Source: Hyphomonadaceae bacterium (GTDB taxonomy: Bacteria; Pseudomonadota; Alphaproteobacteria; Caulobacterales; Aquidulcibacteraceae). Taken from it: a DNA stretch of 64,000 nt. Each line of letters begins with the position of its first letter. The first letter of the stretch is position 1. Made by a program: the position numbers and the translations under genes. Below the pieces are notes generated by a model, which was not told the DNA's origin, did no database searches, and was given only the letters and a program-made list of their open reading frames with translations. The DNA lies in the NCBI GenBank assembly GCA_019753105.1, contig JAIELJ010000015.1, positions 1 to 64,000 on the forward strand, read 5' to 3'. Below, piece after piece: positions 29,370 to 41,658 of this stretch.

Positions 29370-30398
29370 CTACTTCCCCTCGAACAAGCTCCCGCTCTCA
29401 ACCGGCTTGCTCGGCGGCTTCTTCCCCAGCCGCTCATACGCCTTCGGCGCAGCAACCCGCCCGCGCGGCGTGCGCATGACTAGGCCTTGCTGCATCAAGT
29501 ACGGCTCAATCATATCCTCGATCGCATCGCGGGCTTCGGACAACGCCGCCGCCAGCGTGTCGACGCCAACCGGCCCGCCGGAATAGGTTTCGACCAAAGC
29601 ATGCAGATAGCGGCGATCGAGCATGTCGAGGCCGTCGCTATCGACATCGAGGCGTTTCAGCGCAGCATCGGCGGCTTTGGCGTCGATGGCATTGTCGCCG
29701 GCGAAATCGCGGACGCGGCGGAGCAAGCGCACCGCGACACGTGGCGTGCCGCGCGCGCGCTTCGCGATCTCATAAGCGCCGTCCGCCGTGATCGGCGCGC
29801 CCAACTTTGCAGAAGCACGCGACACGATGCCGAGCAAATCCTCGGCACTATAAAAATCCAGACGCACCGGAATGCCGAAGCGATCGCGCAGCGGCGTGCT
29901 CAGCATGCCCGCGCGCGTCGTCGCGCCGACAAGCGTGAACGGCGAAAGATCGATCCGCACGCTGCGCGCCGACGGGCCTTCGCCGATGATGATGTCGAGG
30001 TGATAATCCTCCATCGCCGGATAGAGAATTTCTTCGACCGCCGGCGCGAGGCGATGGATCTCGTCAATAAACAACACGTCGCGCGGTTCGAGATTGGTGA
30101 GCAGCGCCGCAAGATCGCCGGCGCGCGCAATCACGGGGCCGCTGGTGGCGCGGAAGCCGACACCCAATTCGCGCGCGATGATCTGCGCCAGTGTCGTCTT
30201 GCCTAAGCCCGGCGGGCCGAACAGCAAAGTGTGGTCCATCGCTTCGCTGCGGCCGCGCGCGGCTTCGACGAAGACCTTGAGATTGGCCTTGGCGGCGGGC
30301 TGGCCGACGAACTCGTCGAACCCTTGCGGGCGGAGCGCACGGTCCGCGCCCTCTCCGGGCATGCGTTCAGGCGTGGTGATGCGTTCTGCTTCGGCCAT
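29370..30398 (-). CDS. ruvB: Holliday junction branch-migration helicase RuvB
   Basis: A 342-residue AAA+ motor that drives branch migration with RuvA. Walker A is GPPGLGKT (61-68) and Walker B is in [10 protein letters not shown]. The sensor/hairpin region [26 protein letters not shown] and the C-terminal winged helix ([24 protein letters not shown] to [12 protein letters not shown]) are complete. It is on the same strand as ruvA and ruvC but separated from ruvA by 3.3 kb of unrelated genes. It is followed downstream, after another 8.9 kb, by ybgC. Confidence 0.97.
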
Positions 30399-30538
30399 TG
30401 CGCTTCTTAACTCGATTCGGGTTTCCGAATTGTTCTGGTCTACGCCTGTGGATAAACCGAAAATCGAAATGTCGGCTTTAGGCGCTGGGCTTCGTCCTCC
30501 GGCCAGCGCCGCTCACGGCCAGGCTGAAAGGACACGCC

Positions 30539-30904
30539 ATGCACTACATGTTTCTGGTCTCCGGGGTCGAGACCGTGACTGCACCGCCGCAAGCCATGAT
30601 CGATGCGATCGAAGAGCTGACCGAGAAAGAAATGGCGGCAGGACGCATGAAAGCGCGCGGCGGGCTGCTGCCTGTCGCGATGGGCGCCGCGCGGATTGAA
30701 TCGCGTCGCGGCAAACTGAAAATGACGGACGGCCCGTTCGCGGAAACCAAGGAAGTGCTTGGCGGCTTTTCGATCTTCGAGTTCGAGACCCGCGAAGAAG
30801 CGCTTGCGGCCGCGCAGCAGTTCATGGACCTGCACAGCCGGCTCTGGCCGGAATGGGAAGGCGTTTGCGAGATGCGGCCAATGTTCGGCTTCGAGGCGCG
30901 CTAA
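30539..30904 (+). CDS. YciI-family (DGPF-domain) protein
   Basis: A 121-residue protein with a ferredoxin-like YCII fold. The N-terminal strand is MHYMFLVSG and the hallmark DGPF lies in KMTDGPFAETKEVLGGFSIFEF. Proteins of this group are frequently encoded beside ECF sigma factors, and here a sigma gene lies 1.1 kb downstream on the other strand. The catalytic role is not established. It is divergent from ruvB across 140 bases. Confidence 0.88.
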   Translation: MHYMFLVSGVETVTAPPQAMIDAIEELTEKEMAAGRMKARGGLLPVAMGAARIESRRGKLKMTDGPFAETKEVLGGFSIFEFETREEALAAAQQFMDLHSRLWPEWEGVCEMRPMFGFEAR

Positions 30905-30939
30905 AGCCGAGGGTCAGCGCGACGCTCGGCTCGGCGGCG

Positions 30940-31539
30940 TTAGCTCGCTTGGTATTGCGCGATCAGTGCGTCGAGGTGCCGGCGTTCGGGTGCGAGTTGG
31001 ACGACGTATTTCACGACCATCCAAACCGCACCGCACGCCAGCGCCCCACCAAGCACGATGGCCGCCGATTGCATCTCGTGCGGCGCCATTTTGCCGGTCG
31101 CGACAAGCTGGTTGAGCAGCACGAAAAGCAGCGGTGCGAACGCAAGTTGGGCGCCGCCGATGATGAAGATCCGCAGCCGCGCTGCGTCATTATCGGCCTT
31201 CAGCGCGCGGAAAGTCTCAAGCAGCGTGCCAGTCGGCCCGCCCTGCGGCGCGGCGCGTTGGGCGATGAAAATGAGCGCAATGAAAGGGATCAGCGCAAAA
31301 GGAATGAGCCCCCACTCGCGCGTAAGATCGATCGAGTCGACTTGGCCGGTGAGCAGATCGACGCCCATCAGCGCCAGCGGAATGGTCAGCATCACGCCCG
31401 CGAACACCAGCATGCGGCGCAATTGCGTGCGGCGGCTAGCAAGCTTGGCTTGCGCTTCAGCCACGATGTAGGCGCTCGCGGCCGCACTCGGATTGTTGGC
31501 GTTCGAGGCCCAGGCGTTGCGCAGGGATTCATAATCCAT
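30940..31539 (-). CDS. Unknown four-span membrane protein coupled to an ECF sigma factor
   Basis: A 199-residue protein. After a soluble N-terminus (MDYESLRNAWASNANNP) there are hydrophobic segments at about residues 43-62, 75-93, 125-145 and 158-177. It overlaps the end of the upstream sigma gene by 11 bases, the arrangement typical of sigma/anti-sigma pairs. No recognised anti-sigma domain (zinc-binding HxxxCxxC or RskA-type) is present. A regulatory role toward the sigma factor is inferred from coupling only. Confidence 0.7.
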   Translation of the reverse strand: MDYESLRNAWASNANNPSAAASAYIVAEAQAKLASRRTQLRRMLVFAGVMLTIPLALMGVDLLTGQVDSIDLTREWGLIPFALIPFIALIFIAQRAAPQGGPTGTLLETFRALKADNDAARLRIFIIGGAQLAFAPLLFVLLNQLVATGKMAPHEMQSAAIVLGGALACGAVWMVVKYVVQLAPERRHLDALIAQYQAS

Positions 31540-32011
31540 CGTCGTTCTCCATCAGTTGCGTGAGCTTGGCGCGCGCACGCGTGAGCCGCGCGCCGACATT
31601 GGTTTCGCTGAGACCGTGAATGGCCGCGATCTCGGCGTAAGATTGGCCCTCGAGCGAGAGCAGCATGAGCGAGCGATCGACGGCTTCGAGCCTGCGGATC
31701 GCCGCGTAGAGGCGCTCGATCTGCGGATCTTCGCTGGCGTTTTCTTCGACGCGCAGCCGCTCATATTCGCTCTGCCGATGCCGCCGGCGCGCCTCAGACT
31801 TGCGCCAGGTCAGCGCGCGATTGTGCGCGACGCGGTAGATGAATGTCGTCTCCGCACTCTCGCCGCGAAACGACGGCGCTGCGCGCCAGACTGCGAGCAG
31901 TAGCTCTTGTAGAAGATCATGCTGGTCAGCGTTCACGGCAAAGGCCCGCGCGATACGGTGCAGGACACCAACATGCGCACTCACCCACGCCTGAAACCGC
32001 TCATCGCCCAC
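31529..32011 (-). CDS. ECF-type RNA polymerase sigma factor
   Basis: A 160-residue sigma-70 relative with only regions 2 and 4. Region 2 contains DLLQELLLAVWRAAPSFRGESAETTFIYRVAHNRAL (core-binding and -10 recognition). Region 4 contains LMLLSLEGQSYAEIAAIHGLSETNVGARLTRARAKLTQLM (helix-turn-helix for the -35). It is followed with an 11-base overlap by a four-span membrane protein that may control it. The target regulon and signal are unknown. ATG at 32011 fits the family N-terminus. Confidence 0.9.
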   Translation of the reverse strand: MGDERFQAWVSAHVGVLHRIARAFAVNADQHDLLQELLLAVWRAAPSFRGESAETTFIYRVAHNRALTWRKSEARRRHRQSEYERLRVEENASEDPQIERLYAAIRRLEAVDRSLMLLSLEGQSYAEIAAIHGLSETNVGARLTRARAKLTQLMENDDGL

Positions 32012-32057
32012 AATCAGCTCCGATCCACTGCGTTAGACGGCAGTGGGGAGCCGCTCC

Positions 32058-32531
32058 TTACACGCGGCGCAGCCGAATAAGGTAACAGCGCCGCCCGATT
32101 TCGGTCCGACTGGCAGCCAACTCGGGAAAACGATCTGCGTAGACCTGAAAACTTCGCCGGCTCTCAGGCGGCGACGAGCGTCGGAACTCAGCGCAAAGAT
32201 TGATCCGATCCGGGGCGGCTACCTCGTAGGACACCAGCTCCTCCAGATCCGTCCGCAGCGCGCCGCGCTCACAATCTCTGTTGTCATAGTTCATCGCAAC
32301 GAGTGCTGTGCGCGCCTCATCGATGCTCGTTGGCAGCCGGTGCGTGGTTTCAAAATAGCATTGCGCCGCAGTTGCGACGGCGCCGATGGCTTGATAGTGC
32401 GCGTCGTCTAATCGCCGATCGCGCGCGGTGCTGGGACTTCCAACTGTCGTCAAGCCGGCGATGATTGCCGCAACTACAGCGAAGCCGCTGAGAATCGCGA
32501 CGATTAGACCGAGATCAGGCTTGCTGGTCAT
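32058..32531 (-). CDS. Unknown single-span membrane protein
   Basis: A 157-residue protein with an N-terminal transmembrane helix (LIVAILSGFAVVAAIIAGL, about residues 9-27). The predicted extracytoplasmic part contains four Cys residues (AAQCYFETTHRLP, NRDCERGAL, NLCAEFRR, RRCYLIRL), enough for two disulfides. The start at 32531 has GAGG 8 bases upstream; 32537 is also possible. It overlaps the end of the preceding DUF5671 gene by 17 bases, so the two are coupled. No family recognised. Confidence 0.65.
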   Translation of the reverse strand: MTSKPDLGLIVAILSGFAVVAAIIAGLTTVGSPSTARDRRLDDAHYQAIGAVATAAQCYFETTHRLPTSIDEARTALVAMNYDNRDCERGALRTDLEELVSYEVAAPDRINLCAEFRRSSPPESRRSFQVYADRFPELAASRTEIGRRCYLIRLRRV

Positions 32532-33159
32532 TCTCATCGCCTCGCTCGGCGTCGCGGATGAAATAGAGAAAGATCGCGCCCGCGATTGCCGCAACCACCA
32601 GGAACTTGAGCGTCACGCGCGTTGTGAGATCGCCGTTGAGAAAGCCGTAAACCAGCCCGATCGCATCGCCGATCAGTGTGCACGCGGCGATCACCAGCGT
32701 GACGTAGGTGAGCCATTTACGTACGCGTGAACGCTGCATCATCGGATTGATGCGGCGTTGCTTGCGGATATGCAGCGCAAGCCAAACGAAAAGCGGCCCG
32801 CCGACAACGAGACCAGCAATGCCGCGCCGTATCTGACTGTCGAGAAAATCTGCGCCGTAAGTCTCGACCTCATCGGGAATTGTTGTGTCGATCAACGCAA
32901 ACAGCAACGAACCCAAGTGCCAAGCGACAATGCCCAGCAACAGGAAAAGCACGAGATAGAGAAACGCCTCGCGCGCCGAGACGTAGGCTTTTGGCCTCGG
33001 CACCGCCAAGCCGGACTCAGTCACCACCCACTCGGCGAGTGCAGCATCCACCTCTTTCTTGGTCCAGCCAGCAGAGACGAGTGCAGCGCCTATGCGTTCG
33101 CTGCTTTCGCCGCGGTTGAGCGCCTCCTTGATGAATGCGTCGAGTGTCGCGTTTGCCAT
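32515..33159 (-). CDS. DUF5671-like membrane protein
   Basis: A 214-residue protein. Residues 1-50 form a soluble helical domain (MANATLDAFIKEALNRGESSERIGAALVSAGW) resembling the domain found at the start of DUF5671 proteins. Transmembrane segments follow at about 63-85 (AFLYLVLFLLLGIVAWHLGSLL), 110-128, 147-168 and 180-197. ATG at 33159 has GGAGG upstream. It overlaps the next gene at its 3' end. It is divergent from the Gre-factor gene across 55 bases. Function unknown. Confidence 0.72.
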   Translation of the reverse strand: MANATLDAFIKEALNRGESSERIGAALVSAGWTKKEVDAALAEWVVTESGLAVPRPKAYVSAREAFLYLVLFLLLGIVAWHLGSLLFALIDTTIPDEVETYGADFLDSQIRRGIAGLVVGGPLFVWLALHIRKQRRINPMMQRSRVRKWLTYVTLVIAACTLIGDAIGLVYGFLNGDLTTRVTLKFLVVAAIAGAIFLYFIRDAERGDENDQQA

Positions 33160-33214
33160 GCGGCCTCCGGTGCACGCGCCTTGAGGTATGGCGTGGGCGC
33201 GATACATCTACTCC

Positions 33215-33667
33215 ATGAGCCGCGCTTTCGTGAAGGAAGATGATGACGCGCCGGAGGAGCGGGCTGAGCGGCCGATCTCGTCTGCGCCGAATTTAGTCAC
33301 CGCTGATGGCCTCGCCGCCATCGAGGCCGAAGTCGCGCGGCTGACGCAATCCCTTGCCGCCACTGAAGACCGCGACACCCGCGCCCGCCTCAACCGCGAT
33401 CTGCGCTACTGGAACGCACGTCTCGGCAGCGCGCATGTGCAGCCCGCGCCGGCAGACAACGAGATCGTCCGCTTCGGCGCAACGCTGACCATCCACCGCG
33501 ACGACGGCCGCAAGCAAACCTTCCGCATCGTCGGAGAAGACGAAGCCGATCCCGAACGCGGCACCCTCTCCTACGTCTCTCCGCTGGCGCAAGCGCTCAT
33601 GGGCAAGAGCGAAGGCGATAGCGTGCGCGTTGCTGGCGCAGATGCGGAGATCGTCGCGATTAGTTAG
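33215..33667 (+). CDS. GreA/GreB-family transcription elongation factor
   Basis: A 150-residue protein beginning MSRAFVKEDDDAPEERAERP, the usual start of this GreB-like group. A helical N-terminal coiled-coil domain (LAAIEAEVARLTQSLAATEDRDTRARLNRDLRYWNARL) and a C-terminal FKBP-like domain (IVRFGATLTIHRDDGRKQTFRIVGEDEADPERGTLSYVSPLAQALMGK) follow. Gre factors bind the secondary channel of RNA polymerase and trigger cleavage of backtracked RNA. The acidic DD/EE at the coiled-coil tip region is not obvious, so anti-cleavage or regulatory activity is also possible. It converges with ruvA, overlapping it by 4 bases. Confidence 0.85.
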   Translation: MSRAFVKEDDDAPEERAERPISSAPNLVTADGLAAIEAEVARLTQSLAATEDRDTRARLNRDLRYWNARLGSAHVQPAPADNEIVRFGATLTIHRDDGRKQTFRIVGEDEADPERGTLSYVSPLAQALMGKSEGDSVRVAGADAEIVAIS

Positions 33668-34278
33668 CGGCTGACTTCTTTCAACGCAGCGCGGATGAGT
33701 TCCGGCGCCGGCGCATCCGCGTCGAACTGCTTGGCCGCACTCGCAACAGCGCGTGCCGCGCTCGATTGGTCGATGCCGAGATTGACCAGAGCCGACACCG
33801 CTTCGGCGCGCGCGCCGGTGATGATGGCGTTGGCCGTACCTTTGCCGGCGCCGGGCGCAGCGCCCGAGATGAAGCCCTTCGGCCCCTGCTTCGCCGCCAA
33901 CTCTTGCGCCAAGCGCGCCGCGAGTTTGGGGCCTACACCATTGGCGCGCGCGAACGCGGCTTTGTCCTGGAGCGCGATTGCATCGACCAGCACAGACGGC
34001 GGCATCGCATCGAGAATGCCAAGTGCGACCTTCGCGCCGACGCCCGGAATGGTTTGCAGATGCGCGAACCAGGCGCGCTCGTCTTCGCCGGTGAAACCGA
34101 ACAAGCGGATCGCGTCTTCGCGTACGTGCGTCTCGACGAAGAGCTTGACCGTCGCACCCACGCTCAGCCGCTGCAGCGTGCGCGCGCCCGCTTGCACGAG
34201 GTAGCCCACGCCGCCGACCTCAATCAGCGCCGTCTCCTCGCCGACAGCACCCACGACACCGTTCAATGACCCGATCAT
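33664..34278 (-). CDS. ruvA: Holliday junction-binding protein RuvA
   Basis: A 204-residue DNA-binding subunit of the RuvAB complex. Domain I (MIGSLNGVVGAVGEETALIEVGGVGYLV), domain II with two helix-hairpin-helix motifs (LQTIPGVGAKVALGIL, ARANGVGPKLAARLAQEL) and the C-terminal RuvB-contacting domain III (EAVSALVNLGIDQSSAARAVASAAK) are all present. The ATG at 34278 gives the canonical MIGS/MIGxLxG start; upstream in-frame sequence is not RuvA. It is isolated from ruvB (3.3 kb) and ruvC (5.6 kb). Confidence 0.96.
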   Translation of the reverse strand: MIGSLNGVVGAVGEETALIEVGGVGYLVQAGARTLQRLSVGATVKLFVETHVREDAIRLFGFTGEDERAWFAHLQTIPGVGAKVALGILDAMPPSVLVDAIALQDKAAFARANGVGPKLAARLAQELAAKQGPKGFISGAAPGAGKGTANAIITGARAEAVSALVNLGIDQSSAARAVASAAKQFDADAPAPELIRAALKEVSR

Positions 34279-34420
34279 CGGAAATCCTCTTCCCCTCTCC
34301 AGTGCGGGGATTCGGGCGCGGGCGGAACGATTGGCGTGGATTTCGTGCGGCTCGCCGCATGGGATTGGCCGCTCCGGGGCAGCCGCGCTAAGCCGGAGGC
34401 TCAAAGTTTGGGGAAAACGC

Positions 34421-36475
34421 ATGCCACAGCTGACACGCCGCGCCGTCACCGTCTCAACGCTCGCGCTCATGGCCGGATGCGCCACAGGCGGCGGATCGAC
34501 CTCGGCGCCGCGCGGTCGCGCCGCCATCGGCTCTTTCGGCATCGACATGACGTCCGTCGATCCAAACGTGAAGCCGGGCGACGATTTCTTCGAGTACTGC
34601 AACGGCACGTGGATGCGTAACAACACCATCCCTGAGGATCGCACCTCCTGGGGCACGAACGACATGCTGACGGTGAAAGCCGAGCATGATGTGCGCACGA
34701 TCATCGAAGAAGCCGCAGCAGCTGGCGGCGAGGAAGGCTCGAACCGCCAGAAGATTGCTGACTTCTACAACGCGTATCTCGATCAGGACGCGATCGACGC
34801 GCGCGGCCTCACACCCATCCAACCGGCGCTGACGCAGATCGCAGCGTTCCGCACGCACGAAGATGTTGTGCGATTCATCGGCACGCCCGGCAATGGCGCG
34901 TCGTTCCCGATCTCGCTCTATATCGGCCTCGATGAGCGCAACCCGGATCGTTATCTGCCGCAAATGACGCATGGTGGCTTAGGCCTGCCGGAGCGCGAAT
35001 ATTATCGCCGCGAAGACGCCCGTATGCCGGCGCTGCGCCAAGGATACGAAGCTGCGTGCGCGAACATGCTGGGTCTCATCGGGCAAAGCGACGCCGCCGC
35101 GAAAGCGCGCGCGATCATGGCGCTTGAGACGCAGATTGCCGAATTGCATTGGCCGGTCGCGGATCGCCGCGAGCGTGAGCGCACCTACAATCTGCTCAGC
35201 AAAGAACAAGTCCGCGCGCTGGCGCCAGCCTTCCCGTGGAATGCGTATTTCACGGCGCGCGGGCTCGGCAATGCGAACGAGATTGTTGTCGCCGAATTGA
35301 GCGCAATGGGGCCGCTCGCGAACCTCGTCGTCAACACACCGGTGACGACGTGGCAGAGCTATGTCGCTTGGCATTACGTGAGCGCCCGAGCCGCGGTGCT
35401 GCCGCGCACGATTGATGATGCGAACTTCGACTTCTACGGCCGTCAATTGAGCGGCGCGGAGCGCCAGCGCGATCGTTGGCAGCGCGCCATTCAGGCTACA
35501 AACGGCGCGCTCGGCGAAGCGATTGGCGAGATCTATGTCGCGCGCCACTTCCCGCCGGAAACCAAAGCGCAAGCGCTCGAACTGGTCGAGAACATGCGCA
35601 TCGCCTACGGCCAGCGCATCGATCAATCGCCCTGGATGTCAGAGGAAACGAAGGTCGCGGCGCGCGAGAAGCTCGCCACGTTCCGCCCGAAGATCGGCTA
35701 CCCGGATAGCTGGAAAGATTATTCAGGCTACGAGGTGCGCGCCGGCGACGCGTTCGGCAACGCACATCGCTATGCGACTTGGGATTGGGCCAACGATCTA
35801 GCGCGCCTGGGCCGCCCAAGCGATCGCGATGAATGGTTCATGGTCCCGCACGCGGTGAACGCTTATTACAACCCGCCGTTCAACGAGATCGTCTTCCCTG
35901 CCGGTTATCTCCAGCCGCCGCTCTTCGATATCAATGCCGACCCTGCCGTGAATTACGGCGCCATTGGCGGCGTCATTGGCCACGAAATGGGTCACGGCTT
36001 CGATGACCAAGGCGCGAAGTCGGATGCGCACGGCGTGTTGCGCGATTGGTGGAACGAAGAAGATGTCCGCCGCTTCCGCGAAGTCACGGATCGTTTGGCC
36101 GATCAGTATTCGCAGTTCGAGCCGCTGCCGGGCTTGCGCCTGAACGGGCGCTTGTCGCTCGGCGAGAACATCGGCGATTGCGGCGGATTGCAAGTTGCGT
36201 TGCACGCCTATCGCATTTCATTGAACGGCGAAGAGCCGCCTGTGCTCGAAGGCACGACCGGCCTGCAGCGCTTCTTCATGGGCCGCGCCCAACACCGCAA
36301 AATGATTCAGCGCGAACAAGCGCTGCGCAATCAGGTGATGACAGGCCCGCACTCGCCCGCGCGGTATCGGATCAACGGCCCGGCGCGCAATATGGATGCG
36401 TGGTACGAAGCCTTTAACGTTCAACCTGGCGATGCACTTTACCTGCCGCCAGAAGAGCGCGTCACGATTTGGTAG
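34421..36475 (+). CDS. M13-family zinc metallopeptidase, exported (neprilysin/PepO-like)
   Basis: A 684-residue endopeptidase. The N-terminus MPQLTRRAVTVSTLALMAGC looks like a lipoprotein signal with a lipobox (LMAGC) and a twin-Arg pair, so Tat or Sec export with lipidation is likely. Then comes the M13 start SVDPNVKPGDDFFEYCNGTWM. The zinc motif HEMGH is H521-E522-M523-G524-H525, with the third ligand E582 in GENIGDCGG. Substrate-binding NAYYNPPFNEIVFPAG is present. M13 enzymes cleave oligopeptides. It lies 135 bases upstream of the Tat-exported repeat protein on the same strand, and is divergent from ruvA. Confidence 0.93.
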   Translation: MPQLTRRAVTVSTLALMAGCATGGGSTSAPRGRAAIGSFGIDMTSVDPNVKPGDDFFEYCNGTWMRNNTIPEDRTSWGTNDMLTVKAEHDVRTIIEEAAAAGGEEGSNRQKIADFYNAYLDQDAIDARGLTPIQPALTQIAAFRTHEDVVRFIGTPGNGASFPISLYIGLDERNPDRYLPQMTHGGLGLPEREYYRREDARMPALRQGYEAACANMLGLIGQSDAAAKARAIMALETQIAELHWPVADRRERERTYNLLSKEQVRALAPAFPWNAYFTARGLGNANEIVVAELSAMGPLANLVVNTPVTTWQSYVAWHYVSARAAVLPRTIDDANFDFYGRQLSGAERQRDRWQRAIQATNGALGEAIGEIYVARHFPPETKAQALELVENMRIAYGQRIDQSPWMSEETKVAAREKLATFRPKIGYPDSWKDYSGYEVRAGDAFGNAHRYATWDWANDLARLGRPSDRDEWFMVPHAVNAYYNPPFNEIVFPAGYLQPPLFDINADPAVNYGAIGGVIGHEMGHGFDDQGAKSDAHGVLRDWWNEEDVRRFREVTDRLADQYSQFEPLPGLRLNGRLSLGENIGDCGGLQVALHAYRISLNGEEPPVLEGTTGLQRFFMGRAQHRKMIQREQALRNQVMTGPHSPARYRINGPARNMDAWYEAFNVQPGDALYLPPEERVTIW

Positions 36476-36610
36476 CCCCATAAATGCGGGCTAGTTGCGA
36501 GACGTTCGCGCGTGCCAAACCGTCGCACGCGGTGTTAGATTCGTGTTTGAGGGAAGAGTTTGATGCGAGCGGCTCGCAAGTCGGGCCGGCGCTGACTTTT
36601 GGGGAGACCG

Positions 36611-37090
36611 ATGTCGGACAAAAAGCGTTTGAATCGCCGCTCATTTATGGCGCGCGTTGCGGGCTCGGCCGCGATCATTGGCGGCGCTGGCGCCATCATC
36701 ACCGGAGAAGCTGCTGCACAGAACTACACCGGCCGCACCGATAGCGATTCCGGCGCCTACGCCGACCGCGCCGGTTACGGCCGCACCGGCCTCACGGATA
36801 GCGACAGCGGCAACGGCTCCGACCGCGCCGGCTACGGCCGCGGCGGCGGCGGTGGTGGCGGCACGACTGGCGTAACCGATAACGATCCGAGCGATCCGGT
36901 CGGCAACGGTCGTGGCGGCGGCGGTGGCAACCGCACCGGTCTCACCGATAGCGACGCCGGCGGCAACGCTGACCGCGCCGGCAACGGTCGCGGCGCAACA
37001 CGCTCATCGCCGACTGGCCGCACCGACGGCGATAGCGGCTCCTACGCTGACCGTGGCAATTACGGCCGTGGCCCACGCCGCAACTGGTAA
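36611..37090 (+). CDS. Tat-exported protein with TDSDSG/GYGR repeats, family not recognised
   Basis: A 159-residue protein with GGGGAGA before the ATG. Residues 5-36 form a Tat signal (R9-R10-S-F-M, hydrophobic AGSAAIIGGAGAIITG, cleavage near AAA|Q). The mature part is five copies of a 19-residue unit: residues 40-58, 59-77, 86-101 (degenerate), 109-127 and 135-153, joined by Gly-rich linkers. The consensus is TG(R/L)TDSDSGxxADRAGYGR. It has no Cys and no known fold; Gly, Asp and Arg dominate. It is six bases upstream of the oxygenase gene and 135 bases after the M13 peptidase. Low complexity makes homology assignment unsafe. Confidence 0.85.
   Translation: MSDKKRLNRRSFMARVAGSAAIIGGAGAIITGEAAAQNYTGRTDSDSGAYADRAGYGRTGLTDSDSGNGSDRAGYGRGGGGGGGTTGVTDNDPSDPVGNGRGGGGGNRTGLTDSDAGGNADRAGNGRGATRSSPTGRTDGDSGSYADRGNYGRGPRRNW
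36728..37069 (+). repeat. Tandem coding repeat, five units of about 57 bases
   Basis: Inside the Tat-exported protein. Units start at 36728, 36785, 36866, 36935 and 37013. Units 1, 2, 4 and 5 keep all 19 codons; unit 3 keeps the start (TGVTDNDP) and the GNGR end only. Gly-rich linkers separate units 2/3, 3/4 and 4/5. The DNA copies share codons such as GCTACGGCCG, suggesting duplication within the gene. Confidence 0.8.
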
Positions 37091-37096
37091 TCGCTA

Positions 37097-38275
37097 GTGT
37101 CACATAGCGAGCCTTGGCTCGACGACCCGCTCGGTTCGATCATTGGACCCGAGCGGGTCGCGCATTTCTTCGAGCACGTTTACGAGCGCGAAGCGCTCAT
37201 CACGCTGCATAACCAGCCGCAGCGCTTCGCCGGTCTGCTGACGATCGACGACGTCGATCGTATCGTCACAGGCCTTGATCTGAAGCAAGGTCAGCTCGCG
37301 CTGGCTGATGCGTCACGTGAACTTAAAACGGAAGAGTTCATCGATGACGCCGGCTATATCGATCGCGGTGCTGTCGCTGATCTTTATCGCCGCGGCGCGA
37401 CGATCATTCTCAATCAGGCGCATCAGTTCACGCCTTCACTTGCCCGGCTCTGCCGCGGGCTGGAGCACACCTTCTCGTCGCACGTGCAGACGAACACCTA
37501 TCTGACGCCCCCCAACGCGCAGGGCTTCCGTACGCACTACGACAATCACGACGTGCTCGTGATCCAGGTTGAAGGCGAAAAGGCGTGGCGGCTTTACGAC
37601 AAGCCGATCGACACACCGTATCGCGGCGAAGGCTTCGAGCCTGACAAGTATCAGGCGGGCGAGCTGAAGCAGGAATTCGTGCTGAAGGCCGGTGACTGCG
37701 CCTACGTCCCGCGCGGCCTGATGCACGACGCATCGACTTCGGGCGAGCATCCCTCGCTGCACGTCACCGTCGGCCTCATCACGCGCACCTGGGCCGACTT
37801 GATGCTCGAAGCGGTTTCGGAAGCGGCGCTGCGCTCACCAGAGCTTCGCCGCTCGTTGCCGGCGGGCTTTGCGCGATCCGGCTTCAACCGCGATGGCGCG
37901 CGAAAGCAATTCGCCGAAGTGATGCAGACGATCGCGCGCGAGGCGCAGCTTGATCCCGCACTCGATCTGATGGTCGACACCTTCATCCGCTCGCGCGGCG
38001 CCGATAACCGCAACGCCATCAACGAAGGCGCACACGGCCCCGGAATCGAGGAACGCTTTCAAGCGCGCGCCAACGCGCCGTTCCGGATCGCGGACGATGC
38101 AGGCGATGTGGTGATTATCTGCCCGGGCGGCGAACTGACGTTTGCGGCGGAAAGCTTAGCGGACGTGCAGCTCGCCTTGAGCGGCAAGCCGTTCACCCTG
38201 GCCGACATCAGAAGCGCCAAGCCAACGGCCTTGATCGCGTCGCTGCTGGCCTACGGGTTGGTGACGCGCGTCTGA
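37097..38275 (+). CDS. JmjC/cupin-type 2-oxoglutarate oxygenase (YcfD/RoxA-like)
   Basis: A 392-residue Fe(II)/2-oxoglutarate oxygenase-like protein. The metal triad fits H147-x-D149 in THYDNHDVLVIQVEGEKAWRLYD and H210 in VPRGLMHDA. N-terminal WLDDPLGSIIGPERVAHFFEHVYEREALI and the C-terminal winged-helix-like domain follow the ribosomal-oxygenase layout (E. coli YcfD is of similar length). YcfD hydroxylates an Arg of ribosomal protein uL16. The GTG start is 6 bases after the repeat-protein stop with no strong ribosome site, implying coupling. Either it is the uL16 hydroxylase or it acts on the adjacent Arg/Asp-rich repeats; the second is inference. Confidence 0.85.
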   Translation: MSHSEPWLDDPLGSIIGPERVAHFFEHVYEREALITLHNQPQRFAGLLTIDDVDRIVTGLDLKQGQLALADASRELKTEEFIDDAGYIDRGAVADLYRRGATIILNQAHQFTPSLARLCRGLEHTFSSHVQTNTYLTPPNAQGFRTHYDNHDVLVIQVEGEKAWRLYDKPIDTPYRGEGFEPDKYQAGELKQEFVLKAGDCAYVPRGLMHDASTSGEHPSLHVTVGLITRTWADLMLEAVSEAALRSPELRRSLPAGFARSGFNRDGARKQFAEVMQTIAREAQLDPALDLMVDTFIRSRGADNRNAINEGAHGPGIEERFQARANAPFRIADDAGDVVIICPGGELTFAAESLADVQLALSGKPFTLADIRSAKPTALIASLLAYGLVTRV

Positions 38276-38595
38276 AGCAACGTGGCGCGCCGAATGGCGT
38301 TTGCGAGCGTCGATGTCTCGAACGGCTTGGCGAGAAGCGTAAGGCCCTGCGCTTCGGCTTCTCTCCGCACCGAGTCCGCATAGCCGCTCGCCAGAATAAC
38401 CGGCAACCCGGCATATGTGGCGCGAACCTCGCGCGCGAGTTCGATGCCGTTCTTGCCGCCCGGCATCATCACATCGGAAAACACAAGATTGGCGGCTGCG
38501 CCGTCTCTCAGCGCGGCAAGCGCCTGCTCAGCACTCGCGACACGGCGCACACGCCAGCCCAGATGCTCCAACATCGCGCCTGTCATGTCGGCCAC
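38251..38595 (-). CDS. Receiver portion of the split hybrid kinase (possible re-initiation product)
   Basis: A GTG at 38595, 12 bases after the amber codon, could restart translation and make a 114-residue receiver. That product would lack the first beta strand and the acidic pair (DD) needed to bind magnesium, so it would probably be inactive. No ribosome site is seen in front of the GTG. Listed to document the fragment; expression as a separate protein is doubtful. Confidence 0.3.
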   Translation of the reverse strand: MADMTGAMLEHLGWRVRRVASAEQALAALRDGAAANLVFSDVMMPGGKNGIELAREVRATYAGLPVILASGYADSVRREAEAQGLTLLAKPFETSTLANAIRRATLLQTRVTNP

Positions 38596-38607
38596 GGCTT
38601 CGTCGTC

Positions 38608-39819
38608 CTATACGAGCAGCACGTCGCCATCGAAATGCGCTGCGGCTTCGGAATTGGCGGCAGGGGTGGCAGCAGCCGTCTCGGCGGGATTGCCACGTGG
38701 CAGCACGAGCGTGAACGTCGCGCCCTCACCTCGGCTTGACGCCACTTCAATGCGGCCACCCGATTGCTGCGCAAAGCCGTGCACTTGCGCGAGCCCAAGG
38801 CCCGAACCGCGGCCGATATCCTTGGTGGTGAAAAACGGTTCAAATATCCTGTCGATCAACTCCGGCGAGATGCCCGCACCGGTATCGCTGACAGCGATGC
38901 TTACGAACGGCGCGTCGGCGTCATTTGGCGCTCCATTCTTCGCGGCAATCCGCACGACGCCGCCATCGCCCATCGCATCGCGTGCGTTGACCGCGAGGTT
39001 GAGGATGGCGAGTTGCAGCGCATCGGGATCGGCAAAAACCGGGTCAGCGCCGTCGACATTGATAGAGACGCGCACGTTCACGCCGAGGCTGCGGTTCAAA
39101 AGATCACAGAGGCCAGCGAAATACTCTTTGAGCGCGATGGATTTCGGCGAGATATCCTGACGCCGAGAAAACGCCAGCAGCTGCTTGCTCAGGTTAGCGC
39201 CGCGTTCGACAGCTTCGCGCATGCGCGCAGTGATCATCGCCCGCCTCTCCGGCGTGTCGGAGCGCTCCAGCATGTTGAGACCGCCGGAGATCACCATCAG
39301 AAGATTGTTGAAATCGTGCGCCACGCCGCCGGTGAGCTGGCCCAACGCCTCGAGTTTTTGCGCCTGGCGCAGCTGCGCCTCGCGCTCTCGCAATTCGGCG
39401 GTGCGCTCGGCGACTACCTCTTCCAAACGATTGCGCGCGAGCCAACGCTCGGTAACGTCGGTCAGTGCAACGCAGAGCCCTTCCGCGGTCGGCGCGATGC
39501 GCAGCTCGACATAGCGCCCTGGCCGGTAGAGTGATTGCGACTCCATCATCGCCATCGGCGCGCCGTTCATCGCTGCGCGCAGGATTACCTTGAAATCGTC
39601 GTGCACCGCGCTGGCGAAATCCCAATAACTGCGCCCGACAATGTGCTCGCGTTCAATGCCGAAATACTTCTCAGCGGCGGCGTTGAATTCGGTGAAACAC
39701 CAGTCTCGATCGAGAGCGTAGAAGCCGTCCGAGATGCTATCGAGCACGCCGCGAAGGCGCGCTTCGCTCATCGCGAGGAGCCGCGCGGCGTCGTTGTTAA
39801 GCGGCGTGTCTTCGGCCAT
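38608..39819 (-). CDS. Kinase portion of the split hybrid kinase
   Basis: If the amber codon is real and not suppressed, this 403-residue product (PAS, DHp, HATPase) is what would be made. It would remain a complete kinase with H168, an N box and G boxes but lacking its receiver. The product would end DGDVLLV, the first strand of the missing receiver, as expected for a truncated rather than designed protein. Confidence 0.6.
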   Translation of the reverse strand: MAEDTPLNNDAARLLAMSEARLRGVLDSISDGFYALDRDWCFTEFNAAAEKYFGIEREHIVGRSYWDFASAVHDDFKVILRAAMNGAPMAMMESQSLYRPGRYVELRIAPTAEGLCVALTDVTERWLARNRLEEVVAERTAELREREAQLRQAQKLEALGQLTGGVAHDFNNLLMVISGGLNMLERSDTPERRAMITARMREAVERGANLSKQLLAFSRRQDISPKSIALKEYFAGLCDLLNRSLGVNVRVSINVDGADPVFADPDALQLAILNLAVNARDAMGDGGVVRIAAKNGAPNDADAPFVSIAVSDTGAGISPELIDRIFEPFFTTKDIGRGSGLGLAQVHGFAQQSGGRIEVASSRGEGATFTLVLPRGNPAETAAATPAANSEAAAHFDGDVLLV

Positions 39820-39904
39820 CCCGAGCCCCGTGCACCGGTCCAGGCCGCCGCAACGCGGCCCATCGGCCAAGAACGCGTCAGCAGCGCTGCGGTTCCCGCG
39901 AGAT

Positions 39905-40402
39905 CTAAGCGCCGGCCCGCCGCCTGAAGCCGCCGTGCGCCGCGTGGCAAAGCGCTACGCCCAGCGCATCCGCGGCGTCAGCGCTTACCTCTCCTGCCGT
40001 CGGCAACAGACGGCGCACCATGAACGCAATCTGGGTTTTGTCGGCGCTGCCCGAACCGACGACTGCTTTCTTGATCGTCGTCGGTGCGTATTCAGCGACC
40101 ACGACGCCGCGACGCGCCGCCGCCGCCAGCGCTACACCGCGCGCCTGTCCAAGCGCCAATGCCGCGCGCGCGTTCGAGTTCACGAACGTCTCTTCAACGG
40201 CGCACTCGTGCGGTTGATGCTGTTCGATCACGGCGCTCAGTTCATCGAGCAAGCAAAGCAAGCGCGATGCGAGTTGCTGTTGCGCTGGCGGCTTGATCAC
40301 GCCGTGCGCGACATGGCTCAAGCGCGAGCCTTCGCTCAGGATCAATCCCCAGCCGCAATTATTGAGGCCAGGGTCGACGCCAAGGATCAAAGTTGCCGTC
40401 AT
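39905..40402 (-). CDS. ruvC: Holliday junction resolvase RuvC
   Basis: A 165-residue endonuclease that cleaves Holliday junctions. The catalytic acidic residues lie in LILGVDPGLNNCGWG, CAVEETFVN and SADAADALGVALCHA. ATG at 40402 overlaps the stop of the upstream O-antigen ligase-like gene by four bases (ATGA). The earlier in-frame start at 40453 would extend into that gene without family support. The C-terminus is short and Arg-rich. It is separated from ruvA by 5.6 kb. Confidence 0.95.
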   Translation of the reverse strand: MTATLILGVDPGLNNCGWGLILSEGSRLSHVAHGVIKPPAQQQLASRLLCLLDELSAVIEQHQPHECAVEETFVNSNARAALALGQARGVALAAAARRGVVVAEYAPTTIKKAVVGSGSADKTQIAFMVRRLLPTAGEVSADAADALGVALCHAAHGGFRRRAGA

Positions 40403-41658
40403 GCGCGCGCATCCAAAGCGAGTCGCGCCGCGACCGCCACATAGATTGTCCAAAACAGATTGTTGGCTTGCAGCGCGTGGCTCTCCGAGAGCGTGTACAT
40501 CGCGAACGCCGCCAGAAACGCCGGCGCCCAGAGCCCAGCATCGCTGCGCGCAACCGCGCCCGCACCACGCCAGAGCGTTGCGACCAGTTGCAGCGCGAAC
40601 AACGCAACGCCGATGCGCCCCATGCCGAGCGCCATCTCAAGCCAGCTCGAGTGCGCCGACGCCACTTCCCACGCGACCGCCTCACGCACCCAAAAAGCAG
40701 GGCCGTTATCGGGGAGCCAGAACGCGTAATAGCCGTAGCCGAACCATGGTTGGGCAGCGACCGCGGGCGCTGCCGCTTCCCAAATGTCGGTGCGCCCCGT
40801 GAGCGTGAGATCGCGCCCGATGACGGCGACCACCAGATCGGGCGCGAGCGTGACGATGCTGACGCCAATCACAACAGAAGCGAGCGCAGCTGCACTTACA
40901 AGTACGGTTTGCAACGGCCCCTGACGCGCCAGCGCGCACGCGCCCATCACAGCAAGGCCAAGGAGACTCGCAAGCAAAGCCGTCTTCGATGTTGAGAGCA
41001 GCACAAGCGCAAAAGCGCCCAGCGCAGCGCCGAGCCAAAGCAAGCGCCGCTGCGGTTCAACCACGGACGCTGCAACACAAACACAAACGCCGAGCGCCAT
41101 GATGCCGCCAAGCGTATTCTTATGCGTCCAGAGTCCAGACCAAGCGCCGGGATGTTCGAACGTCATGCGGCCAATGCTCGGCGCAAGCGCGCCAACGAGA
41201 AGCGAACCGGCGATCAACACAACAAAGGCGCCAGCGATCACAGTGACAAGCTTCGGCCATTCGTAGCGCCAAGCGAGATAGAGGCCGAACCCCATCGTGA
41301 GGCCAAGCCAAACCGAACGCCGCAGCGTTCCGCCGGAATCGATCGACCAGAGCGTCGAAAGCCCAGCCAGCGCCAGCATTCCGATCAGCAGCGGAACAGC
41401 GAGCGCGGTTTGTGCCGCCGTGCGCGCCTGACGCCAGATCACCCAGCCGAGAAACGCATAGACCGGCAGAAAGAAAATTCGCGCATAGCCTGGCGGGTCC
41501 GTCGCGCCCTGGCTTTGCGCGAGTGCGGCAAAGAAAGGTTCCGAGAACTGCACCAGGCAAAGCGCAGCGGCAGCGACCTCCCAACGCGCGGCATCGACGC
41601 GGCCAGATTCGACGCGGCGTGGCGCGCCGGCGTCCACGGAGGCATGGGTCGCGGTCAT
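40399..41658 (-). CDS. O-antigen ligase-family polytopic membrane protein
   Basis: A 419-residue protein with about 10-12 hydrophobic segments. The Wzy/WaaL-type signature lies in the large extracytoplasmic loop: FEHPGAWSGLWTHKNTLGGIMALGV (with the HKNxLG motif) and WFGYGYYAFWLPDNGPAFWV. Homologues polymerise O-antigen or attach glycans to lipid A or proteins. No other glycan genes are adjacent. It overlaps ruvC by four bases, so it probably carries the promoter for ruvC. Confidence 0.88.
   Translation of the reverse strand: MTATHASVDAGAPRRVESGRVDAARWEVAAAALCLVQFSEPFFAALAQSQGATDPPGYARIFFLPVYAFLGWVIWRQARTAAQTALAVPLLIGMLALAGLSTLWSIDSGGTLRRSVWLGLTMGFGLYLAWRYEWPKLVTVIAGAFVVLIAGSLLVGALAPSIGRMTFEHPGAWSGLWTHKNTLGGIMALGVCVCVAASVVEPQRRLLWLGAALGAFALVLLSTSKTALLASLLGLAVMGACALARQGPLQTVLVSAAALASVVIGVSIVTLAPDLVVAVIGRDLTLTGRTDIWEAAAPAVAAQPWFGYGYYAFWLPDNGPAFWVREAVAWEVASAHSSWLEMALGMGRIGVALFALQLVATLWRGAGAVARSDAGLWAPAFLAAFAMYTLSESHALQANNLFWTIYVAVAARLALDARA

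Follow-up and report, generated by a model that had tools for sequence, protein, structure and literature searches.

The locus considered here lies in a window of 64,000 nucleotides (positions 1 to 64,000 of contig JAIELJ010000015.1, from a Hyphomonadaceae bacterium), and holds a gene for an Asp-rich repeat protein with a twin-arginine translocation (Tat) signal, followed at once by a gene for an Fe(II)/2-oxoglutarate (2OG) oxygenase of the JmjC_2 family and preceded by a gene for an M13 peptidase (Table 1). A first-pass annotation, made from the nucleotide sequence alone, had proposed that the oxygenase modifies the repeats. The open reading frames (ORFs) and the Pfam matches bear out its three genes and their spacing, with 135 bases separating the M13 gene from the repeat gene and 6 bases the repeat gene from the oxygenase gene.

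Table 1. Features of the repeat protein‒oxygenase locus in the window.
Feature	Positions	Strand	Basis or remark
M13 peptidase	34421..36475	+	ATG to stop; PF05649 E 8.6e-116, PF01431 E 3.7e-62
Weaker second operator copy (TTGCGAGACGTTCGCGC, 10/12 letters)	36495..36511	.	upstream of main copy
Fur-like operator TTGCGA-N5-TCGCAA (here ATGCGAGCGGCTCGCAA, 11/12 letters)	36563..36579	.	31 bases 5' of ATG
Tat-signal Asp-repeat protein, proposed substrate, 159 residues	36611..37090	+	ORF; homologues adjoin oxygenase in relatives
Twin-arginine motif NRRSFM of repeat protein	36632..36649	+	read from sequence; RRSFL/RRSFM in homologues
Repeat unit 1, TDSDSGAYADRAGYGR	36737..36784	+	read from sequence
Repeat unit 2, TDSDSGNGSDRAGYGR	36794..36841	+	read from sequence
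Repeat unit 3, short type (type B), TDNDPSDPVGNGR	36875..36913	+	read from sequence
Repeat unit 4, TDSDAGGNADRAGNGR	36944..36991	+	read from sequence
Repeat unit 5, TDGDSGSYADRGNYGR	37022..37069	+	read from sequence
JmjC_2 Fe(II)/2OG oxygenase, proposed modifying enzyme, 392 residues	37097..38275	+	GTG to stop; PF08007 E 1.5e-28
Codons of H147 to D149 (HxD metal ligands)	37535..37543	+	60/60 alignment rows
Codon of third metal ligand H210	37724..37726	+	60/60 alignment rows

The repeat protein consists largely of recurring Asp-rich units. The five units first described are all present, four of them with the 19 residues ascribed to each (TGxTD.D.....D....GR) and one of them shorter (TGVTDNDPSDPVGNGR). 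The four long units share a 16-residue core, T-D-x-D-x-G-x-x-x-D-x-x-G-x-G-R, in one case with N for the later G, and the short core is T-D-N-D-P-S-D-P-V-G-N-G-R. By the motif NRRSFMARVAG and the hydrophobic stretch found with it, the protein is a predicted Tat substrate, and the twin-arginine motif is also present in homologues that were found without requiring it, except those cut at contig ends. When the protein was scanned against Pfam and NCBIfam, no family scored above cut-off; a Pfam scan of three alpha-type precursors likewise matched no repeat family, including the calcium-repeat families, and membership of a known calcium-repeat family was rejected on that account. Cys is absent from the window precursor. 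A simple rule assigns a lipobox to 25 of 110 precursor ORFs and an AxA site to 83 of 110, and therefore both membrane-anchored and released forms of the product are expected.

The oxygenase matches PF08007 (JmjC_2) with 99.3 bits against a cut-off of 22, and is the only JmjC_2 protein over the cut-off in the genome of the window. Among solved structures, the sequence profile places human NO66 (E 6.8e-39) and MINA53 (E 8.3e-35) nearest, whereas the R. marinus YcfD chain (4csw/4cug) scores weakly (E 5.5e-5); the entry 4cug is assigned to R. marinus YcfD in the relevant passage of PMC5862942. The original label of a YcfD-type enzyme is thus imprecise. Relatives were collected as the best 80 of 492, which define the named loci referred to below. 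Five of the 80, whose match starts after residue 12, were left out, 66 of the remaining 75 were kept below 92% mutual identity, and 59 of these 66 together with the window oxygenase make up an alignment of 60 rows. H147, D149, H210 and K162 are present in 60/60 rows; the roles of the first three follow from alignment to NO66 and YcfD, and K162 is the residue that we take to bind 2OG. The enzyme thus has the iron triad HxD...H and the 2OG-binding Lys of the JmjC_2/ribosomal-oxygenase superfamily. In a phylogeny the repeat-linked oxygenases cluster strongly (2 label changes versus 9.9 in shuffles), and they form a single clade in only 15% of 200 bootstrap trees, YcfD and the enzyme of locus L066 lying on very long branches. 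At L192 (2704-3057, minus strand) a distant JmjC_2 enzyme, not of the repeat-linked type, is the neighbour of an ORF whose leader is of the Nif11 type (PF07862, E 7.9e-10), which may be taken as a second hint of bacterial JmjC_2 enzymes acting on precursors of the kind seen in ribosomally synthesised and post-translationally modified peptides (RiPPs).

The two genes occur together almost without exception. When 60 genomes of the family were searched with all three proteins, the repeat protein was found in 28 and a close oxygenase (E <1e-90) in 29, namely the same 28 and G041, in which the contig ends at the 5' side of the oxygenase. A sample of 299 genomes drawn evenly from the order was then covered by two separate searches, one with an oxygenase profile and one with the repeat protein of a relative. 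At E 1e-10 the profile matched 81 genomes, which fall into two groups with a wide gap between them: 59 genomes reach E 3.7e-116 or better, and the other 22 have a best match of E 4.2e-40 or weaker. The line around the subfamily was placed inside this gap after it had been seen. The repeat protein was found in 58 genomes, all inside the 59 with the oxygenase, so that 58 genomes have both, one has the oxygenase only (again G041, 65% complete and cut by the contig end), none has the repeat protein only and 240 have neither (Fisher p 1.3e-61, a value that ignores kinship). In G017 the repeat matches lie at C318:2429-3007, 106 bases downstream of the oxygenase. Among 398 genomes sampled from the phylum, 14 were matched and eight of them hold an oxygenase of this type (E 1.4e-103 or better; next 4.7e-40), and in all eight (G000, G065 and L184-L189) the locus includes a repeat gene with a Tat signal. 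None of ten other JmjC_2 loci (L190-L196 from the phylum sample, with about 1.5 kb on each side, and L064-L066 from the family) shows alpha-type units, the only type that the script sought, in the sequence covered.

Adjacency is similarly widespread. A repeat gene lies near the oxygenase in 75 of the 80 named loci, in Alpha- and Gammaproteobacteria, with record titles that include Hyphomonadaceae, Maricaulis, Hyphobacterium, Oceanicaulis, Brevundimonas, Peiella, sphingomonads, Pseudohongiella and Pseudomonadales; the named loci and the family genomes overlap heavily and are not independent sets. Upstream of the oxygenase, 70 of the 80 have one or more Asp-rich ORFs that carry a twin-arginine motif, the closest of them no more than 364 bases away: 44 loci have one such gene, 12 have two and 14 have three. 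The script required the motif for these 70, and its frequency there is no test. The other five of the 75 have repeats cut by the contig end (L087, L107), repeats that are partly masked (L128) or a repeat gene downstream of the oxygenase (L101, L118). Where no repeat gene was seen, the sequence begins at the oxygenase or within 66 bases of it (L088, L090, L093, L102), save at L095, where no repeats were found in 5.4 kb. On this distribution repeat gene and oxygenase gene belong together as a conserved two-gene module, linked across related genomes. The near-perfect co-occurrence and the adjacency in two classes make the repeat protein very probably the substrate of the oxygenase, as the first-pass annotation had suggested, and the predicted Tat signal fits its idea that modification takes place in the cytoplasm before export.

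The surroundings of the pair were compared as well. In the window, ruvB, ruvA and ruvC (minus strand, by Pfam) extend over 11 kb (29370-40453), with the module between ruvA and ruvC. Genes of the ruvA/ruvB/ruvC group are found around 41 of the 80 named loci (ruvA 38, ruvC 39, ruvB 31) and dnaJ around nine others, all gamma-titled; the remaining 30, some of them on short contigs, have neither. All 19 loci with transketolase or pgi nearby also carry ruv genes, therefore these surroundings were rejected as a separate context and counted with ruv as one. Thus the pair has been passed on without moving in roughly half of the loci, and it stays together in other surroundings in the rest. No further conserved neighbour was recognised with the rough longest-ORF gene calls, the recurring clusters being housekeeping genes. 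A gluconolactonase-like gene (PF08450) downstream of the pair in Maricaulis-type loci looks lineage-specific. At L133, titled Dehalococcoidia, the oxygenase and the repeat gene are very close to gammaproteobacterial ones (L149), which is probably a binning error or a recent transfer.

The M13 peptidase had been suggested as a possible means to mature or recycle the product, a role that finds no support. A good M13 relative exists in 59 of the 60 family genomes, and it adjoins the oxygenase in 8 of the 29 that have this enzyme (upstream in G000, G037 and G050, downstream in G032, G033, G041, G048 and G054) and in 5 of the 80 named loci. Since this adjacency is sporadic and on both sides, and the operators of the window lie between the M13 gene and the pair, the peptidase was excluded from the module.

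Further repeat genes exist apart from the oxygenase. Several genomes have Asp-rich repeat genes elsewhere, so that one oxygenase may serve several substrates. The genome of the window has a second Tat-signal repeat protein (G000:C1:148195-148632; L002, L067) of 194 residues with the lipobox LTGC, beside a gene that we take to encode ribosomal L21. The family also varies in form. In L108, L109 and L127 (Brevundimonas/Caulobacteraceae) Cys residues bracket the repeat units (C-SDSDTGTYGDPSGNGRR-C) and could form disulfide loops outside the cell. The repeat proteins of L186-L189 are short, with about two units; a KTLTD-like N-terminal segment precedes the Tat motif, and the C-terminal end carries a Cys. 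Up to three of their genes stand in tandem, and the iron-type operator described below was not found at these loci.

The best clue to function, absent from the earlier reading, is an inverted repeat, TTGCGA-N5-TCGCAA, upstream of the repeat gene. It is present with at least 10 of 12 letters in 21 of 22 promoters of the genus versus 0.1 in mononucleotide shuffles; other spacings from 3 to 7 reach 10/12 in at most one promoter, and in 19 of the 22 the end of the operator lies 19 to 41 bases 5' of the ATG. Second copies are visible by eye upstream in some relatives. Within the window the pattern at two mismatches is not rarer than chance (5 found, 7 expected), therefore the evidence lies in its conserved position. 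Genome-wide, 15 sites have at most one mismatch versus 10 for the reversed pattern, and by one common rule 8 of the 15 lie near an ORF start versus 2 of the 10 control sites. The eight precede acnA (aconitase), hemB (delta-aminolevulinate dehydratase), genes for a TonB-dependent receptor, a solute-binding protein (a family-level match, which we presume to be iron-type) and a PKHD-type 2OG hydroxylase, the repeat gene itself, guaA and an unnamed ORF of 120 residues. By eye, no iron gene was recognised near the two control-pattern ORF starts. The genome has a fur gene, and another site (C1:514528) is located about 380 bases before it. A perfect copy at G000:C7:14429-14445 (L199) lies near guaA and an unnamed ORF, and a gene there is a possible further member of the regulon.

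We take TTGCGA-N5-TCGCAA, and likewise TGAGAAT-N-ATTCTCA, to be Fur-type sites; the label is supported by the genes that the sites precede in the genome of the window. Counting first precursors only, in 68 loci or 65 after near-copies were dropped, one or the other form is found in 46 of the 65 promoters versus about 2.1 in dinucleotide shuffles, for example TGATAATGATTATCA (L122) and TGAGAATCATTCTTA (L117). By group the counts are 15/16 for the Hyphomonadaceae type, 24/40 for other alpha and 7/9 for the gamma type (shuffles 0.4, 1.5 and 0.3). The module therefore seems to be often under predicted Fur-type iron control.

Which residue, then, would be oxidised? Arg and Asp had both been named as targets at the outset, and the repeats favor Asp. 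Counted by leave-one-out in 108 distinct mature regions, D occupies the three Asp positions of the long units (417 full matches) in 417/418, 417/417 and 417/417 cases, and R closes the unit in 417/440; for the 152 short units the values are 152/153, 152/154 and 152/152 for Asp and 152/161 for Arg. The Asp residues are thus kept at 98.7-100% and the final Arg at 94-95%. Moreover, 8 of the 108 mature regions are Arg-poor, with 0 to 3 Arg each (L135, L136, L138, L139, L140, L143, L144 and L148). All eight come from records titled Gammaproteobacteria or their orders, and their typical unit is TDASDQSGGEG, which the partly masked repeats of L128 resemble. In L143 and L148 the units have degenerated into acidic, Asp/Glu-rich tails with runs of Asp, Glu and Met or Ser, in proteins that keep the Tat signal and are encoded next to this same type of oxygenase. 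By eye, long, short and gamma units have the element [A/S/T]-D-x-x-G in common.

The predicted substrate pocket of the oxygenase was compared with those of its characterised relatives. In R. marinus YcfD the substrate Arg is contacted by D118, M120, Y137 and S208, as given in the relevant passage of PMC5862942. Transferred via E. coli YcfD by residue type, an alignment argument in which no structure was used, these positions become T132, T134, H151 and T224 in the window oxygenase. The position of the Arg-binding Asp of YcfD is Thr in 57/60 rows of the alignment, and that of T134 is mostly I, L or V. For NO66, PMC9994133 gives Tyr328 and Ser421 as contacts of the substrate His; by alignment count they correspond to Y135 and G226, each in 60/60 rows. 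As the acidic residue that holds the Arg is gone, and so is one of the two His contacts, a different substrate residue can be argued for. Together with the conservation of the units, the pocket alignment makes Asp the natural candidate, and Asp is probably the site of hydroxylation.

The sequences show that the genes are paired, that the precursors have Tat-type signals and conserved Asp residues, that the enzyme has the Fe/2OG ligands, and that the operator has other sites in the genome; from these we infer the chemistry, its site and the function of the module as follows. The best explanation, to which we give a probability of about 50%, is an iron-regulated two-gene protein-modification module, the product of which would be beta-hydroxylated on Asp, exported by Tat and able to bind iron. 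Upon iron limitation a Fur-type repressor would leave the operator, a step suggested by the operator sites, and the repeat protein or proteins and the JmjC_2 oxygenase would be made jointly. The oxygenase would then beta-hydroxylate conserved Asp residues of each TDSD...D..G.GR unit in the cytoplasm, most likely the one in the [A/S/T]-D-x-x-G core; the oxidation step is proposed because of the gene pairing and the complete set of metal ligands, and the target residue because of the Asp conservation. Tat would export the decorated protein, and the lipobox homologues, about a quarter, would stay anchored in the membrane. At the envelope ferric iron or another metal would be bound by the arrayed side chains of Asp and beta-hydroxy-Asp, which would make the product a ribosomal counterpart of the beta-hydroxyaspartate siderophores. 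That the product handles iron is argued from the operator and from known beta-hydroxyaspartate chemistry, and we hold this part with a little less than even confidence. More tentatively, the module might represent a new class of ribosomal metallophore in Alpha- and Gammaproteobacteria, in which Tat-exported Asp repeats, beta-hydroxylated by a JmjC enzyme under Fur control, form a polyvalent, surface-anchored or released 'protein siderophore'.

Several other explanations have to be weighed against the same data. The residue hydroxylated might be the Arg of each GxGR unit, as in the action of YcfD on uL16: the Arg is kept at 94-95% in the alpha-type units, where it stands in a Gly-rich stretch, and YcfD itself hydroxylates an Arg, as stated in the passage of PMC5862942. 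Because the eight Arg-poor repeat proteins pair with the same enzyme subfamily and the Arg-binding Asp of YcfD is replaced by Thr, and with the Asp residues being more constant than the Arg, we consider this unlikely. It is also conceivable that Asp is modified as proposed, and that the product binds calcium or is a structural component of the envelope or matrix, with the iron control merely mirroring the Fe(II) need of the enzyme. EGF-like domains have calcium sites, D-x-D-x-G...D resembles calcium loops, and the lipobox forms (25/110) would suit such a role; AspH hydroxylates Asp/Asn in EGF-like domains, according to PMC6817910. Given that the three alpha-type precursors matched no Pfam repeat family, and that the operator is common to TonB receptor, haem and aconitase genes, this alternative deserves attention as a minority view.

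Alternatively, the repeat protein could be a multi-core precursor that is cut to small hydroxylated products, a RiPP proper, perhaps by M13-like peptidases. The many near-identical cores with linkers, the one to three precursor genes per locus, the distant JmjC_2 enzyme beside a Nif11-type leader and the JmjC hydroxylase BipG, which PMC12707348 places in a RiPP pathway, would all agree with it. Neither a peptidase nor a transporter nor a second tailoring enzyme was recognised nearby as widely conserved, and 25/110 precursors have a lipobox, which leaves this possibility rather improbable. As a further alternative, the first-pass annotation had considered a housekeeping hydroxylase of uL16, or in our wording another ribosomal protein, beside the repeat gene by chance. 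The oxygenase is related to ribosomal oxygenases and is the only JmjC_2 protein over the cut-off in its genome. Nevertheless, it is absent from 240 of the 299 order genomes, it was found without repeats, among the loci examined, only at contig ends and at L095, and a distant JmjC_2 protein is carried in addition by four genomes (G065, G225, G243 and G296). With a pocket that differs from the Arg pocket of YcfD at T132, T134, H151 and T224, and with repeats in 58 of 59 oxygenase genomes, this explanation fails by the sequence data and is extremely improbable.

The iron-regulated Asp-hydroxylation module also has to face a number of points that weigh against it. The production of an Fe-dependent enzyme under iron starvation is paradoxical, and PiuC-type enzymes provide a precedent for it. 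An Asp target alone does not explain the roughly 95% conservation of Arg in alpha-type units, and the units of the gamma-titled L117, L119, L142 and L149 contain Arg or are followed by it. The ruv neighbourhood shared by about half of the named loci means that adjacency there is partly plain inheritance, which weakens one argument for linkage and leaves the co-occurrence and the other surroundings unaffected. As regards the operator, its count alone (15 versus 10) is barely above the genome background, guaA and the 120-residue ORF among the eight sites have no recognised iron link, the iron-relatedness of the linked genes was judged by eye, and the score limits were fixed after the genus sites had been seen. 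It was not found in 19 of the 65 first promoters or before the repeat genes of L118 and L184-L189, and the second repeat gene in the genome of the window has neither the operator (best 8/12) nor an adjoining oxygenase.

Beta-hydroxyaspartate iron ligands are known from small siderophores. If true, the proposed mechanism would join the bacterial JmjC hydroxylases, whose chief protein substrate in the passages cited here is uL16, with iron acquisition by beta-hydroxyaspartate. It would give a reason why a protein that is repetitive and probably unfolded should leave by Tat, namely that oxidation is completed first in the cytoplasm, and would offer a genome-mining handle on a widespread family for which no Pfam or NCBIfam model was found. 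Substrate, class of residue and growth condition all follow from it as predictions, which makes it testable. The pairing of the repeat protein with a JmjC_2 enzyme was not found among the titles and abstracts listed from the open-licence literature (in one case 15 of 54), which is not proof of absence. As Iyer et al. (2010, NAR), on peptide-modifying dioxygenases, may touch on it, no priority is claimed for the pairing. Exported, oxidised ribosomal proteins are already known as a kind, and it is the precursor family that has no Pfam or NCBIfam name.

The window oxygenase has in common with NO66, MINA53 and YcfD/RoxA the PF08007 domain and the HxD...H ligands. It differs from them in being genetically tied to an exported repeat protein, and from the NO66 and YcfD pockets in having T132 (Asp in YcfD), G226 (Ser421 in NO66) and H151 (Tyr in YcfD). 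Lipopeptide siderophores with beta-hydroxyaspartate are made by non-ribosomal synthesis. In one of them, cupriachelin, beta-hydroxyaspartate moieties contribute to the photoreduction of the bound iron, as PMC10484230 reports. The likeness of such siderophores, so described, to the module here is the ligand chemistry proposed; they are small lipopeptides, whereas the product of the module would be a ribosomal protein. PesHI is a pair of MNIO enzymes. Enzymatic beta-hydroxylation of Asp is known in ribosomal peptides from SmaO/SmaX of a graspetide cluster (PMC13097080) and from PesHI (PMC13060819), and the passages concerned have no Tat-exported repeat protein, unlike the module here. A gene for a multi-core precursor beside one for a modifying enzyme, as found here, is the arrangement of a RiPP locus. 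BipG, the JmjC ornithine hydroxylase of biphenomycin, likewise acts on a ribosomal precursor of its own cluster in the passages of PMC12707348; its short-peptide antibiotic pathway includes several other enzymes, while here there are one enzyme, many repeats, Tat-type signals and iron-type control. The bufferins, exported metal-binding RiPPs made by iron-dependent MNIO oxidative enzymes as outlined in PMC12452194, are alike in having the precursor gene before that of an iron-dependent oxidising enzyme, a precursor with a signal peptide, tandem and stand-alone precursor genes and a metal-chelating product, which for the module here is a proposal. As described there, they rely on an MNIO enzyme, copper chelation by conserved Cys, Sec signals and a DUF2063 partner gene; the module here, in contrast, has a JmjC_2 enzyme, Asp repeats in a precursor without Cys, Tat-type signals, no recurring partner gene that was recognised and an iron-type operator.

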